A DNA stretch of 5,882 nt, from assembly GCA_021106775.1 (NCBI GenBank), contig JAIOTL010000221.1:1-5882 (forward strand), written 5' to 3'. This DNA comes from Planctomycetota bacterium. GTDB lineage: Bacteria > Planctomycetota > UBA8742 > SKZP01 > JAIOTL01. Under the pieces are notes generated by a model that made no database searches, was not told the origin of the DNA, and worked only from the letters and a program-made list of their open reading frames with translations. The position numbers and the translations under genes are program-made. Below, piece by piece: positions 1-5,882 of the stretch; position 1 is the first letter of the stretch; every line of letters begins with the position of its first letter.

Positions 1-8
1 CTGTTGAG

Positions 9-1565
9 TTGACAGGTGGCTATCCTCAGATGATGGATCCGAATTATGCTCGAAGAATCCTTTCGCTTGGAAAAGATGGACTGCCTGCAGTCATTGGTTG
101 TGCGAAGTCGTCGCATCTGTTTTTGAAAAGAAATGCGGTTGCAGCACTTGCGAATTATCATGATAAGGCAGCATACAAGGAATTACGGAAATATATCAAG
201 CATAAAGACCTTGTTGTACGTTTACGTGCGATGAAAGGTCTGATGAATACGAAATCAAAAGAGAATATCAGTTATTTCAAGAATATGCTGAGTTCAAAGG
301 ACCCAATGTTCCGCTCAATCGGTTGTTATGGACTTGGCAGTTACGGCGATAAGGACGTTTGCGGAAAATTGATGACATATTTCAATTTCGCACTGAAATC
401 CAATAATAAAGATTTTATGTGGTCGCTTTTGCCGGCAATCAGAAGATGTGACGATGCTGAAAGCAGCAAACGCGATTCATGGGTTGATATTTTACGTTCT
501 GCTGCGAAACGGTTTAAAAGGTCGTTCCCAAGCAGAAGTTCGGGTGATGCGGGTGGAGAAGTTCCCTCACCGCAAGACCCGAAGAGACCAAACGTAACAA
601 TTCTGGGTCAGCGTGCAGCATATCCGGAAAAAATCGGTTATAAGAACATAATTTTATGGCAAATGACACAACTCGCACTCGCTGCACTGAATTCTGAGCT
701 TGAAATCAACAGGGTTCTAAGCTTGTTGAAAAGCGGCGGTGTAGGGCAGGCTTTTCATAAGGTGAACTGGTTCTTAGTACCTGACGCACTTGGAAACATT
801 CCCGGTGGAAAAGGTGTCGATGCACTGAAATCAATTGCACAGGACGCCGCTATCCCTGAAAGTATCTCTGTTTGGGCTGTTCGCGCACTTGAAAGATTGG
901 AAGTCGAAGCGAAATGGTTTTATGATATTGTTGTCAGTTACGGACGTTCGACTGTTCGCGCGCAGGCATTGATTGCACTGTCGCAGAAATCGGGCAGCAT
1001 GGCAAAAGAAGCATGTCAGAAAGCGATTGAAAACTTCAACTCTGCACCTTCAAACGGAGCGGAAGCGTTCTTTTATACTTCGGTTTTGCATATAGGCGGT
1101 CAACTTAGCGCGTTTAAATCTGAAAAGCTGTTGGAAGTAACACGAGCTTGTTTCTCAGCACGTGCATACGCAAAACGTCAGGGAAATAATGACCCGGACA
1201 TCACAAAATCCAACATTTCAGTGTATCCGCCGCTTCTTGAGACTGCTATTCTCGAGCTTGGCAGGACTGGCGATGAGAAAGCGATTGATTTATTTATGGA
1301 TATTCTCAAAGCCGATATGCCTAACGGCTCACCTGAAGCAGCACTTGCTCTTGGTGTGCATCTCAAGCCTGAGGTTATACAAACGTTGATTGCCACGCTT
1401 CGGGATTGTTCTCAGGGTTGGACTCGGTTTTGTGCTTATCGTGCGCTTAAGAACCTAAGCGATAAGGATTATTTCTGCGATTGGATTTTTGGCAGTAAAT
1501 CAGTGAGGGAAAGACGTCTTTCTGGTTATGAAGACTGGCTAAAAGAGTTGAAATTGCCCAAATAA
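9..1565 (+). CDS. HEAT-repeat protein, probably 5'-incomplete
   Basis: This is a soluble alpha-helical repeat protein of 518 residues as counted from a TTG at position 9. Paired-helix repeats with the HEAT/PBS-lyase pattern (helix, A-x-x-A-L, G or N turn, D/K, helix ending L-x-x-x-L) are visible around residues 36-66, 67-98, 99-125, 256-280, 284-340, 406-435 and 441-465. A Ser/Gly/Pro-rich linker lies at about 172-195. There is no signal peptide, membrane segment or catalytic motif. HEAT arrays usually serve as protein-binding scaffolds; the partner is unknown. The start is uncertain: the frame stays open to the left edge, so the gene may begin outside the window. The ATG at 30 has an AGGTGG at 14-19 with 10-nt spacing and is the best in-window alternative. 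It stops with TAA 404 bp before the convergent regulator gene. The HEAT-type call is fairly sure; a specific function cannot be given. Confidence 0.8.
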   Translation: MTGGYPQMMDPNYARRILSLGKDGLPAVIGCAKSSHLFLKRNAVAALANYHDKAAYKELRKYIKHKDLVVRLRAMKGLMNTKSKENISYFKNMLSSKDPMFRSIGCYGLGSYGDKDVCGKLMTYFNFALKSNNKDFMWSLLPAIRRCDDAESSKRDSWVDILRSAAKRFKRSFPSRSSGDAGGEVPSPQDPKRPNVTILGQRAAYPEKIGYKNIILWQMTQLALAALNSELEINRVLSLLKSGGVGQAFHKVNWFLVPDALGNIPGGKGVDALKSIAQDAAIPESISVWAVRALERLEVEAKWFYDIVVSYGRSTVRAQALIALSQKSGSMAKEACQKAIENFNSAPSNGAEAFFYTSVLHIGGQLSAFKSEKLLEVTRACFSARAYAKRQGNNDPDITKSNISVYPPLLETAILELGRTGDEKAIDLFMDILKADMPNGSPEAALALGVHLKPEVIQTLIATLRDCSQGWTRFCAYRALKNLSDKDYFCDWIFGSKSVRERRLSGYEDWLKELKLPK

Positions 1566-1969: not shown

Positions 1970-3316
1970 TTACTTGAGCTTTTCATCAATCTCATCAGGT
2001 GTGATACCAAGTTCCTCGGATGCTCGTAAAACGTCCTGACTGAAGAATTCCAGCGTTTTTAAGATATGCTCGCGAACTACATCAGTAAGCTTGCGAGGGC
2101 GAAACTCTGTCAACTCGCTTTTATCCGAGGTCATTTTATCGCGAATGTATGGTGAAAGTGTTTCAATGCCTATCATATCGTTGTCTGCGTTAATCACAGA
2201 TGTTGCGATAATGTCGCGAAGTTCCTGCAAATTACCGGGGAAATGATAGTTTTTGAGAATCTCAATGTATGACTCAGCAAATCCCTTGATATTCTTGCCT
2301 GTACGCTGATTTTCTTGCGCCAATGCAAACTCAGCAATGAGAAGTAAATCATCCGGGCGTTTTCGTAGAGGTGGAATCACAATTGAATGCAAAATCAAAT
2401 GATTCAGCAGGTCGGGGATTATAAAATCGTTGAATTCATCGACAGTCAGGTCATGAATCGACGCTACAATTACACGTACATCGATTTTCTTAATTAATGT
2501 TGAACCTTCACTGTAATATTCATTGTGTTGAAGAACCCGATTAAGCCGAATCTGTGCTGCTTCCGACATCTCCTCAATGTTATTGACAAAAAGTGTGCCG
2601 TTTGCCGCTTCCTCAAGGAATCCGGATTTCTCCTCTTCGCCCTTCCAGTCTTGTGCCTGCCCGAACAATGCTGCAGAGAAAAGCTCAGAATCATGTGCAG
2701 CGACATCTACAGCGACAAAAGGCATATCTTTTCTGGGGCTTGCACTGTGAATTGCCTGTGCAAGAGAATTCTTACCGGTTCCTCTCTCTCCGATGATGAA
2801 AACACTCAGACCTCCCGCAGCCATCTTCTCAATCTGATGAAAAAGACGTATCATTTTCGGGTCTTGCGTTGGTACATGATCGAACACTTCTTTGTTTTCT
2901 AGGTCTTCTTTGGTCAATTGCTTGGGAAGCTGAATAATCCGTGTTCGCAGCGTTCTATGCTGAATCGATTTGTCTAAAGTACTTAACAAAAATTCATCAT
3001 CAACGGGTTTTGTCAGATAATCGAACGCGCCGAGTTTCAGTGCTTTCACCGCCAGGTCAACATCGCTGACACCTGTAAGAATAATAACGGGTGTATCAAT
3101 CTTTTTCTCTTTCACAAGCTTCAAAATGTCCATTCCGCTGAGATGCGGCATATCCATGTCAAGCACAATTGCGTCGAAAGTCTCTCTTTCAAGGATTTCA
3201 GGCACATCTCGCGAATCATTTACGATTGTGCTTTCGTATTTCTCAGTCTGCATCAAAAAAACCATCAGATAATTGGTTACAGCAACATCATCATCGCAGA
3301 TTAGTAATTTTCTCAT
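1970..3316 (-). CDS. NtrC-like response regulator with degenerate AAA+ and HTH domains
   Basis: Predicted cytosolic partner of the kinase encoded just upstream. Residues 1-120 are a receiver with all key positions: Asp8/Asp9, phosphoacceptor Asp53 (D-x-x-M-P), Thr81, Lys103. Residues about 145-392 align with the sigma-54 activator AAA+ domain. Walker A is GERGTGKN (176-183), keeping Lys182. Walker B reads TLFVNN instead of TLFLDE, so Asn245-Asn246 replace Asp-Glu. The GAFTGA loop is gone: 220-231 are two residues shorter than in NtrC and read DWKGEE there. Arginine fingers are replaced (Ile300, His306), and sensor II Arg of GNVREL is Gln364. The C-terminus (411-448) fits a Fis-type HTH (RASEELGIT), but its recognition helix is acidic (PDEIDEKL). 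The frame is intact, so this is not a decayed pseudogene by sequence. Normal sigma-54 activation looks unlikely; the output is unknown. The ATG overlaps the kinase stop. Confidence 0.92.
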   Translation of the reverse strand: MRKLLICDDDVAVTNYLMVFLMQTEKYESTIVNDSRDVPEILERETFDAIVLDMDMPHLSGMDILKLVKEKKIDTPVIILTGVSDVDLAVKALKLGAFDYLTKPVDDEFLLSTLDKSIQHRTLRTRIIQLPKQLTKEDLENKEVFDHVPTQDPKMIRLFHQIEKMAAGGLSVFIIGERGTGKNSLAQAIHSASPRKDMPFVAVDVAAHDSELFSAALFGQAQDWKGEEEKSGFLEEAANGTLFVNNIEEMSEAAQIRLNRVLQHNEYYSEGSTLIKKIDVRVIVASIHDLTVDEFNDFIIPDLLNHLILHSIVIPPLRKRPDDLLLIAEFALAQENQRTGKNIKGFAESYIEILKNYHFPGNLQELRDIIATSVINADNDMIGIETLSPYIRDKMTSDKSELTEFRPRKLTDVVREHILKTLEFFSQDVLRASEELGITPDEIDEKLK

Positions 3317-3329
3317 GATTTGTTCTCTC
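3313..3329 (-). promoter_or_regulatory. ATGA overlap and ribosome binding site coupling kinase to regulator
   Basis: The kinase stop and regulator start share ATGA (3313-3316 on the minus strand). A GAGAG purine tract (3325-3329) lies 8 nt upstream of the regulator ATG, inside the kinase 3' end. This arrangement fixes the regulator start and suggests translational coupling, giving matched amounts of the two proteins. Confidence 0.7.
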
Positions 3330-5334
3330 TTTCATGCTTGAGAAATCTTGTTGATTCCTGGCTTTTCTTGCGTATCGGGATGCGAATTGTGAATGTAGTG
3401 CCTTCGCCGAAATTGCTTGTAGCGGAGATTTTACCTTTGTGTTCCTCAATAATTCTGTACGCGATTGAAAGCCCAAGCCCGGTGCCGCCTTTTGCGCGTT
3501 TTGTTGTGAAAAAAGGGTCGAAAATCTTATTCAATGTGCCTTCGGACATACCTTTGCCGTTGTCCTCGACTTTTACAACAATTTCACCTTTTTCAATAAA
3601 CGTATTAACCTTAATGAGTCCGCGTTTTTCCTCGTGCATTGCCTGACTGGCATTAATAATCAGATTTATGATAATTTGTTCAATTTTCTGAGCATTTCCC
3701 TGAAACATGGGAATATCGTTACCGAGTTCAAGCTCAATTTCAGCATAATTATGAACTTGATTGTGTACAAGGCGCGTACTCTCAGCGATAACGTTGTTAA
3801 TGTCAACCTGGTCGATGAGAAGTCCCTCGTCCTTACGGGCGAAACCTTTCAGATCTTTTACAATGCGCTTGATACGTTCTGAACCGTTTGCCATATCATT
3901 AACAAGCGTAAGAATGTGCTGGCGGAAAAAATCGTATTTCAGTCTGGCGATTTTTAGCTCTAAATGCTCCTTCTGATATGCGTCGAGGATTGGCAGAATA
4001 TCTTCAAAAGCCTGCTGAATAATTTTGATATTACCCCTGATAAATTGATTCGGATTGTTAATTTCGTGACCGATACCGCTTACAAGCTGACCCAGCGATG
4101 CAAGTTTATCCGCCTGCTGAAGCTGTTGTTCATACGTCTTCTTAAAAGTAATATCCCGATAAAACTCAATTATTCCCTCAACTTCGTGCTCGTTGTTGAA
4201 AATCGGCATCGCATGTACTTCATAAAATTCATCTTCATGCTCAATCTCAAGTGTAATGGGCGTTTTTTCTCGGATTATGCGTTTGAGTCTGCAATCAAGG
4301 CAGGGTTTATCGCTGTTAAAGAACGTTTTATAGCATTTTTTCCCTGTTTCGACATTCTCACGGTTAGTCATAATAACATTGCGCTGTAAATCAATAATCG
4401 CCATCTCATCCGGAATCGCCTTAAACATTGTCTCAAGCCTGACTTTCGATTGCTCGAAGCCTTTTGAGACATCGCCGAGATAGGAATTCAACGTGTCAAG
4501 CTTGGCGTGTTGCTGATGTAAATCCTTAGTTCGAATTTCAATTTCTTCCTCAAGCTCCTTTAGCCTGCGATTATATTCTTCTGATTCCTCTTGTTTACTT
4601 GTAACAATCTCGGAAAGCAGTTTCCTATCGAGTGCCAACCCAAGCATACGAGCGATTTCATCCAATAATTTCCCTTCCTCAGGAAGCAATGCAAGCTCTG
4701 GCTTTGAGTAAAACACAGTTATCTCACCTTGTTTCTCATCGCTTAAGATTATCTCAGAGCGGATAACATTTTCATGAACTGGCTTTTTACCATATGAATT
4801 ATCCTGATATTCGGAATAAATCTGTGCTGATTCAGGATATTTCATTCCTTTGCTCAGATAGTTTGGCAGCTCAGCAAAGAATTCTTTGCTTGAATGCGAC
4901 TTCTGAATCCATTCAGCGACAGAGTATAAACACGCAAGCTCCTTGGCACGTTCGGTTTGTTCATATTCATCGGATATCGGCAGGTTCTCGAGGCTTGATT
5001 TATTATTTGACCAGAAAAGAAACAGTGTATTCCCGTTAGAGGTTGAAACAGAGGTTTTTAGAGGAATGTATGACTTTTTATCTTTATTCTTGAGATAAAA
5101 GATTTTGCTGGATTTTCCATCTCTTAAAGTTTGCAATACATTACGGAATTCTGTCAGTAATTCATCGTCAAAAATGCCTTTAAGCGTGATTTTGTCAGAT
5201 GTTACATTATTTCGGATGCATTCATCCCGAAATTGTCTGCTCATGCTGATTACATTTTCATTGCCATCAACAACAAGCACATAATTAAAACTTTTTTCAA
5301 GCAAACCAAGCAGCGTGTCCGTTGTAACTGTCAT
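3313..5334 (-). CDS. Soluble PAS/GAF hybrid-sensor histidine kinase, HEINNPN type
   Basis: Sensor kinase of 673 residues without membrane segments, so it likely senses a cytoplasmic signal. In order: a PAS-like domain (about 10-110, VLVVDGNENVIS); a degenerate GAF-like module (about 128-240, from ELACLYSVAEWI to LLDEIARMLGLALDRK); a charged coiled coil (about 240-300); a PAS domain (about 300-397) with a Cys cluster, Cys334, Cys345 and Cys348 (CLDC); a HisKA domain with H-box GHEINNPNQF (His423); and HATPase_c with N-box NLIINA (557-562), G1 DNGKGM (591-596), F-box FDPFFTTK (605-612) and G2 GGTGLGLS (616-623). All catalytic motifs are intact. The H-box is separated from RIKRIVKDLKGFAR (487-500) by a long helical stretch, typical of the kinase subclass with HEINNPN-x-FI boxes. 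It has no receiver of its own; phosphate should pass to the overlapping downstream regulator. The ATG at 5334 has GAGG 4 nt upstream. The ligand is unknown. Confidence 0.95.
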   Translation of the reverse strand: MTVTTDTLLGLLEKSFNYVLVVDGNENVISMSRQFRDECIRNNVTSDKITLKGIFDDELLTEFRNVLQTLRDGKSSKIFYLKNKDKKSYIPLKTSVSTSNGNTLFLFWSNNKSSLENLPISDEYEQTERAKELACLYSVAEWIQKSHSSKEFFAELPNYLSKGMKYPESAQIYSEYQDNSYGKKPVHENVIRSEIILSDEKQGEITVFYSKPELALLPEEGKLLDEIARMLGLALDRKLLSEIVTSKQEESEEYNRRLKELEEEIEIRTKDLHQQHAKLDTLNSYLGDVSKGFEQSKVRLETMFKAIPDEMAIIDLQRNVIMTNRENVETGKKCYKTFFNSDKPCLDCRLKRIIREKTPITLEIEHEDEFYEVHAMPIFNNEHEVEGIIEFYRDITFKKTYEQQLQQADKLASLGQLVSGIGHEINNPNQFIRGNIKIIQQAFEDILPILDAYQKEHLELKIARLKYDFFRQHILTLVNDMANGSERIKRIVKDLKGFARKDEGLLIDQVDINNVIAESTRLVHNQVHNYAEIELELGNDIPMFQGNAQKIEQIIINLIINASQAMHEEKRGLIKVNTFIEKGEIVVKVEDNGKGMSEGTLNKIFDPFFTTKRAKGGTGLGLSIAYRIIEEHKGKISATSNFGEGTTFTIRIPIRKKSQESTRFLKHERENKS

Positions 5335-5675: not shown

Positions 5676-5729
5676 TCATGCAAGATGCCTGACTCTTCTA
5701 CTTTGTGCGAAAATCAATGTAACTTTGCA
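5676..5729. repeat. Repeat module bordering the second MITE copy
   Basis: 5676-5693 is the inverted partner of 1697-1714 (16 of 18 matches). In direct orientation, GATGCCTG (5684-5691) and TTCTAC (5696-5701) correspond to GATGCCTG (1742-1749) and TTCTAC (1750-1755). From TTCTAC onward the spacing to the MITE is identical in both places, and ATGTAAC-x-TTG-x-A directly precedes CTAG in each. So the DNA next to both MITEs is related beyond the element itself. Confidence 0.5.
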
Positions 5730-5882
5730 CTAGGCAGTGTTTGAAAAATAGTTACGATTGAATTTTATCAGATTTGCGTGAGATTCGGAATTTCTAATTG
5801 AAGAACGCCGCAGGTGAAGCCAAAGCTTCATTGAGGACGTTTTGAGTGAGGAAATTTTGAAGATTGCATGAAGCTGGTAAAA
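5730..5882. mobile_element. MITE-like element, second copy cut by the window edge
   Basis: This copy begins with CTAG (5730-5733) and the terminal repeat GCAGTGTTTGAAAA (5734-5747). It aligns without gaps to 1788-1936 at 145 of 149 positions, in the same orientation. The four differences are single substitutions. The last 27 bp and the right terminal repeat fall outside the window. The high identity suggests recent movement or gene conversion. It lies 396 bp upstream of the kinase start, so with the first copy it brackets the two-component operon. Confidence 0.8.

Follow-up and report, generated by a model that had tools for sequence, protein, structure and literature searches.

INTRODUCTION

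The sigma-54 activators known as bEBPs (PF00158), which include NtrC, ZraR and NtrC1, are textbook ATP-driven activators, and their sensor I and sensor II contain residues with functional roles. The roles of the GAFTGA loop, the Walker B glutamate (E108 in PspF) and the arginine finger (R168 in PspF) are described in the available portions of PMC7175178. According to the available portions of PMC10274813, NtrC of R. capsulatus has no GAFTGA, works via sigma-70 and requires ATP binding, not hydrolysis, and the function of Caulobacter NtrC requires Walker A and Walker B residues. A further described system that bears on the present locus is the electron-bifurcating Stn transhydrogenase, of which the structure 8OH5 represents StnABC and in which StnC is a fusion of GltD and NuoG (PMC10482914, available in part); in the accessible main text of that source the terms ‘operon’, ‘gene cluster’, ‘histidine kinase’ and ‘response regulator’ do not occur. 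A search of the literature at the level of titles and abstract openings, mostly excluding subscription papers, found neither a kinase–regulator pair beside Stn nor an account of a family such as the one described below.

Here we analyzed a stretch of DNA of 5,882 nucleotides (hereafter referred to as the window), which, according to a prediction made from the sequence alone (the original prediction), encodes an NtrC-type regulator with a dismantled ATPase site, and compared this regulator with its relatives and with ordinary bEBPs.

MATERIALS AND METHODS

A protein search at E 1e-20 gave 3511 homologues among 7999 candidates scored, and the best 120 of these 3511 matches (the query and 119 others) were used and are therefore the nearest homologues. 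A genome scan and phylum searches yielded 77 family loci, 11 of which repeated a genome, leaving 66 distinct genomes in which a family member could be placed at a usable locus; one additional genome (G296) matched the family and gave no locus, and is not among the 66. The family set comprised 186 sequences including that of the window (181 distinct sequences; 145 at 90% identity), and the comparison set comprised 68 ordinary bEBPs. Because the same pattern scan yielded both sets, the ordinary set is biased towards similar proteins. The tree was computed using FastTree (LG) from 254 sequences and 450 columns. Most of the data are draft genomes from metagenomes, and phylum names were deduced from the titles of the sequence records.

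RESULTS

The regulator encoded in the window

The features of the kinase–regulator pair are summarized in Table 1. The residues on which the original prediction was based (K182, N245-N246, S286-I287, I300, H306 and Q364) are all correct in the translation, and the region that it described as the altered ATPase (2219–2599, minus strand) corresponds to residues 240–366. Two further losses were observed in the same protein: the GAFTGA loop now reads GQAQDWKGEEEKSG, and the C-terminal HTH has TPDEIDEKLK in place of a basic recognition helix. Pfam matches extended over residues 5–113 (receiver), 150–306 (sigma-54-activator AAA+ domain; PF00158, E 7e-35, 120.6 bits with a cut-off of 20.2) and 318–400 (AAA lid; 61.2 bits with a cut-off of 27). 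Thus, of the features that define a sigma-54 activator, the protein has the PF00158 AAA+ domain with its AAA lid and Walker A Lys182, and lacks GAFTGA, the Walker B Asp-Glu pair, both arginine fingers and the sensor II Arg. The acidic pocket and the phosphorylation sites of the receiver are all present (D8, D9, D53, T81 and K103).

Table 1. Coordinates of the regulator, its partner kinase and their functional sites in the window
Feature	Position	Strand	Basis
Response regulator with putative pseudo-ATPase AAA+ domain, 448 aa	1970..3316	minus	Translation; Pfam Response_reg, Sigma54_activat and AAA_lid_14
Receiver domain, residues 1-120; Asp53, Thr81 and Lys103 intact	2957..3316	minus	Pfam and alignment (D53, K103: 186/186)
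Walker A, residues 176-183 (GERGTGKN); Lys182 intact	2768..2791	minus	K182 in 186/186
L1 loop, residues 219-232; DWKG-type sequence in place of GAFTGA	2621..2662	minus	Alignment (GAFTGA-like in 0/186 vs 65/68 ordinary bEBPs)
Walker B, residues 240-247; Asn245-Asn246 in place of Asp-Glu	2576..2599	minus	Translation and alignment
Sensor I; Ser286-Ile287 in place of Thr-Asn	2456..2461	minus	Translation and alignment
Arginine-finger region, residues 299-306; Ile300 and His306 in place of Arg	2399..2422	minus	Translation and alignment
Sensor II, residues 360-366; Gln364 in place of Arg	2219..2239	minus	Translation and alignment
C-terminal Fis-like helical region, residues 405-448; acidic recognition helix	1973..2104	minus	Charge comparison and AlphaFold2 model
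Partner histidine kinase, 673 aa; 4-bp overlap with the regulator gene	3313..5334	minus	Translation, Pfam and synteny
Cysteine motif C334-x10-C345-x2-C348 in the PAS domain of the kinase	4291..4335	minus	Each Cys in 50/50 full-length kinases
Presumed phospho-acceptor His423; H-box GIGHEINNPNQF	4066..4068	minus	Sequence; H-box residues kept in ≥90% of the kinases (n = 50)

The nearest homologue (P0003, 82% identity) has the same residues as the window at 12 of the 12 key positions compared, which rules out sequencing error or chance as their origin. Identity with the ordinary bEBPs from the pattern scan is only 30–35%, and the best named homologues, among the matches listed, belong to Eisenbacteria.

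Elsewhere in the window, a convergent gene for a HEAT-repeat protein (PF13646; positions 3–1565, plus strand), open at the window start, had no match among the open reading frames of the 12 relatives compared. A 193-nt direct repeat with 91% identity (positions 1744–1936 and 5690–5882; same orientation, 3946 nt from start to start) flanks the kinase–regulator pair, and an Rfam scan of the whole window gave 0 matches.

Phylogeny and distribution of the family

The 186 family sequences formed one clade containing none of the 68 ordinary bEBPs (support, 0.963; stem, 0.80). At E 1e-80, family-positive genomes carried one copy each, and positive genomes were found in the phylum containing Aegiribacteria/Fermentibacteria (27/42), the phylum containing Krumholzibacteriia (31/80), the Eisenbacteria phylum (3/47), the class Holophagae (3/148) and the phylum of locus L009 (2/10). 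In searches of 12 genomes at E 1e-30, family members scored 396–532 bits, and no other match exceeded 219 bits. No viral relatives emerged when viral contigs were scanned with the regulator; the two pattern matches obtained were not relatives. Several family members are publicly annotated as sigma-54-dependent Fis family transcriptional regulators, an annotation that could mislead regulon predictions.

The family genes are nearly all open reading frames. In one draft locus (L012:8437–11113), the kinase is split between two frames, with its second part adjoining a shortened regulator; in another (L009:10001–11248), a stop was found within the regulator match. Sequencing error is possible in both.

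Residues kept and lost in the AAA+ domain

Asp53, Lys103 and Walker A Lys182 were present in all 186 family members. The output residues of the AAA+ domain differed from those of ordinary relatives, as the original prediction had supposed. In the ordinary set (n = 68), Walker B was DE in 67 proteins and DD in 1, sensor I began with T (64) or S (4) followed by N (62) or H (6), and Arg was present at positions 300, 306 and 364 in 68/68 each, whereas in the family Arg300 was found in 0/186, Arg306 in 7/186 and Arg364 in 7/186 (one of the 179 members without Arg364 has a gap there). Loss of the first arginine finger is therefore conserved throughout the family. The loop corresponding to GAFTGA is rewritten throughout the family and is shorter by just one or two residues. 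When six output features of bEBPs were scored, 156 family members had none, 25 had one, 2 had two and 3 had three (n = 186), compared with all six in 67 and five in 1 of the ordinary set. Position 204, that of the switch asparagine, was left out of this comparison because even ordinary bEBPs vary at this site (N 43, A 17, D 7 and H 1; n = 68).

The replacements are themselves conserved (Ser300 in 171, His306 in 175 and Gln364 in 160 of the 186 members), and the signature of the family combines Ser300/His306/Gln364 with an acidic tail and the rewritten L1 loop. The Walker B pair, however, varies among NN, DN, DE, SN, GE, DH and others, somewhat above the variability of the median column, and DE or DD is retained by 16 of the 145 non-redundant members, so that hydrolysis is possible for some of them. 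The Asn-Asn pair, for which conservation among homologues had been envisaged, is accordingly one of several Walker B losses, and represents a local state and not a family signature. The original interpretation is thus supported in part: the reading as a pseudo-ATPase withstands the refuting condition set for it, since Arg300 is absent from all 186 members and none combines an intact Walker B with intact arginine fingers, but the Asn-Asn pair is not family-wide.

On the tree, position 300 changed once and positions 306, 364 and 287 changed 5, 6 and 4 times, respectively, and Walker B underwent seven changes (Fitch), or eight losses when regain was barred. The repeated changes at Walker B, as opposed to the single change at position 300, suggest an order in which loss of the first finger and of the sigma-54 loop probably preceded the repeated losses of Walker B.

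Purifying selection acts on the family in relatives. In the 14 closest genome pairs, several of which share members and all of which are among relatives, with the window in none, dN/dS was 0.05–0.13 for the whole gene, a comparison that the original prediction had proposed, and 0.02–0.13 for the AAA+ part; the C-terminal part gave higher values (0.02–0.37; 13 pairs).

The C-terminal region

We compared the mean charge of the 11 residues following the HTH turn, limiting the comparison to sequences with the motif A[AS]xxLx[IV], which was absent from 23/120 listed proteins, 17/66 genome loci and 40/68 ordinary bEBPs. The mean was –2.56 in the listed proteins (97/120) and –1.94 in the genome loci (49/66), as opposed to +2.93 in ordinary bEBPs (28/68). 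An AlphaFold2 model of the window regulator (mean pLDDT, 89.9; pTM, 0.79) keeps the NtrC fold, with NtrC1, NtrC4, LuxO and NtrX as its best structural matches, and contains three C-terminal helices, which, together with the acidic recognition helix, indicates that the fold is retained and the surface changed. Judging from these residues, DNA recognition by the C-terminal helices has probably been lost.

The partner kinase and the gene neighbourhood in relatives

The window kinase contains PAS_4, HisKA (below cut-off) and HATPase_c domains. In 64 of the 66 genomes, an orthologue of it directly precedes the regulator on the same strand; the two genes mostly overlap by 4 bp and are never more than 228 bp apart. 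In the two exceptions (L101 and L113), the regulator lies within 100 bp of a contig end. Cys135, Cys334, Cys345 and Cys348 were found in 50/50 full-length kinases, the window included, and might serve in redox or metal sensing. On the side of the regulator, at least 160 of the 186 members share family-specific residues in and around helix 1 of the receiver (residues 12–33; e.g. T14 and N15 in 185; Q23 and N33 in 186). The face formed by this helix is the usual kinase docking side.

Upstream of the kinase, the relatives often have NuoE-like and NuoF-like genes and a 1.2-kaa GltD/NuoG-like gene. The 1228-aa protein at locus L155 matched 9bov_A, which we take to be a related Nfn-type enzyme, at E 8e-229 and 8oh5_C at E 3e-213. 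The synteny count covered 49 of 67 loci, namely those in which the stretch included the kinase and at least 800 bp preceding it; L002 has a 107-aa fragment of the large subunit that scored below the limit used. The large transhydrogenase subunit ended no more than 200 bp before the kinase in 26 of these 49 loci, namely in the Krumholzibacteriia-containing phylum (21/22), the L009 phylum (2/2), Eisenbacteria (1/2) and the Fermentibacteria-containing phylum (2/23), and was 1.1–6.3 kb away in 8 more of the 49. Within the Fermentibacteria-containing phylum, it was 3.0–6.3 kb away in 6 of the 23 loci and was not seen on the stretch in 15. Direct linkage with Stn in relatives therefore spans four phyla. 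The window holds 551 bp upstream of the kinase, and no transhydrogenase gene was found in it; from the relatives, it may be supposed that the organism of the window shares the link.

Co-occurrence was evident in the Krumholzibacteriia-containing phylum, where the transhydrogenase was present in 29/31 family-positive versus 4/49 family-negative genomes (Fisher P 3e-15, a test that is inflated by shared ancestry). The latter count becomes 12/49 if eight genomes with only 40–45% identical matches are included, and G295, counted as lacking the gene, has a fragment with 45% identity at the edge of a contig. The gene was carried by 36 of the 42 genomes of the Fermentibacteria-containing phylum (24/27 family-positive and 12/15 family-negative), and its presence is uninformative there because family-negative genomes carry it too.

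In 19 loci we observed a second response regulator composed of a receiver and an Lrp/AsnC-like domain (e.g. L155:90–1076), and Pfam detected no HTH in the 6/6 examined. After the regulator in L155 (10823–13119), and also in L187 and L196, genes for an FAD/NAD-binding sulfide/dihydroorotate dehydrogenase-like subunit and gltA follow on the same strand and resemble Nfn subunits. The probable change in DNA recognition, the cysteine-bearing kinase and the linkage with Stn in relatives all lay outside the view of the original prediction.

DISCUSSION

The explanation that we favor, with a probability of roughly 0.55, is a redox-linked two-component system in which the regulator is a non-hydrolysing phospho-switch belonging to a monophyletic ‘pseudo-NtrC’ family, with a protein–protein output and, in relatives, a link to Stn. 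The kinase, which is probably redox-sensing, would phosphorylate Asp53 of its dedicated regulator. The AAA+ domain would very likely still bind nucleotide through Walker A, and would neither hydrolyze it normally nor open sigma-54 promoters; a role as a scaffold or in an oligomer is conceivable, as originally proposed, and ATP is possibly a structural ligand in a phospho-controlled protein contact. If both hydrolysis and the reading of DNA by the C-terminal helices have been lost, phosphorylation would be expected to switch the oligomer state or to expose a protein-binding surface, and the output would consequently be control of a putative protein target rather than sigma-54 transcription. Reporting or controlling the NAD(P)H/ferredoxin balance would be a likely task, because the pair is often found within a gene cluster for the Stn-type transhydrogenase in relatives. 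A more specific form of this explanation, which we put forward only tentatively, is that an NtrC-shaped, ATP-loaded and non-hydrolysing ring or dimer acts outside transcription and, when phosphorylated by the redox kinase, binds and gates the Stn-type transhydrogenase or the HTH-less regulator post-translationally.

The alternative that survives best, although we consider it unlikely, is a DNA-binding sigma-70 regulator without GAFTGA, comparable to Rhodobacter NtrC or VpsR, in which ATP binding, a phosphorylation-dependent change of oligomer and DNA binding are kept. R. capsulatus NtrC provides a precedent (PMC10274813, available in part), some DNA binding is possible because the C-terminal region of the model still forms three helices, and PF02954 (Fis-type HTH) has a precomputed match in 6 of the best 120 proteins. 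However, family members have an acidic recognition helix where ordinary bEBPs have a basic one, a Pfam search of the window protein detected no HTH at E 0.001, and in one member (L011:516–2075) a PAS-like sequence, read by eye, replaces the C-terminal HTH region in frame.

The regulator might instead serve as a phosphate sink by which the kinase or the HTH-less second response regulator is tuned, the AAA+ domain being structural ballast. Within the family, the receiver is indeed conserved more strongly than any other domain (mean entropy, 0.99 vs 1.28 for the AAA+ domain), an order that is reversed in the ordinary set (2.04 vs 1.45), and the second regulator without a detected HTH is available in 19 loci. 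Ballast would hardly be expected to remain under purifying selection as strong as that measured for the AAA+ part, or to keep the Walker A lysine in every member, and we regard this explanation as improbable.

Sigma-54 was found in 58/58 family-positive genomes of the Fermentibacteria- and Krumholzibacteriia-containing phyla, and in 10/12 genomes from several phyla (none was seen in G007 and G009, which are drafts and possibly incomplete). A lack of sigma-54 was thereby rejected as an explanation for the two phyla, and a role related to sigma-54 is possible. One such role would be that of a dominant-negative subunit that enters the rings formed by the cell's ordinary bEBPs and poisons them, for which candidate partners exist as further bEBP-like matches at E 1e-30 in 10/12 genomes. 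We give little credence to this role, since the regulator has its own kinase and resembles the ordinary bEBPs from the pattern scan only distantly, and since two of the 12 genomes (G002 and G009, drafts that are possibly incomplete) hold only the family match at E 1e-30, with no sigma-54 seen in G009.

It is also conceivable that the protein is a divergent but active ATPase with a relocated arginine finger and an alternative catalytic acid, as Arg301, one residue from the canonical finger, is present in 147/186 members and a Walker B acid pair survives in a minority. The window regulator, however, has Pro301 and no acid at 245–246, and the sensor II Arg and GAFTGA are also gone, which makes this very unlikely. 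Finally, recent decay of an ordinary bEBP in the lineage of the window, which the disappearance of several catalytic residues might suggest, can be dismissed given the 186-member clade, the conserved replacements, the low dN/dS in the pairs measured and the nearly universal open frames, and the state is one of conservation.

The explanation as a non-hydrolysing phospho-switch would make this multi-phylum clade a natural separation-of-function experiment on the bEBP fold, in which the phospho-receiver and the ATP-binding lysine are invariant while polymerase contact, presumably hydrolysis and probably DNA recognition have been lost. The link with Stn offers a concrete and testable candidate for the way in which anaerobes may sense or control electron bifurcation.

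With respect to known systems, the 1228-aa protein encoded nearby in L155 combines GltD and NuoG-like parts, as StnC does in the Stn enzyme (StnABC, PDB 8oh5), with NuoE-like and NuoF-like genes adjoining; this comparison concerns a neighbour in relatives and not the regulator of the window. The regulator itself resembles the sigma-54 activators NtrC, ZraR and NtrC1 in domain order, fold and receiver phosphorylation site, with 29–33% identity to NtrC1 and LuxO in structure alignments. It differs from them in that the family is devoid of GAFTGA and Arg300, mostly lacks Arg306, the sensor II Arg and the Walker B acids, and has an acidic recognition helix. The family shares the loss of the sigma-54 contact loop with the GAFTGA-less sigma-70 bEBPs (R. 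capsulatus NtrC, Caulobacter NtrC and VpsR), but, unlike these, it has also lost the fingers and sensors, probably along with DNA recognition, and in it the L1 loop has been rewritten, not deleted.
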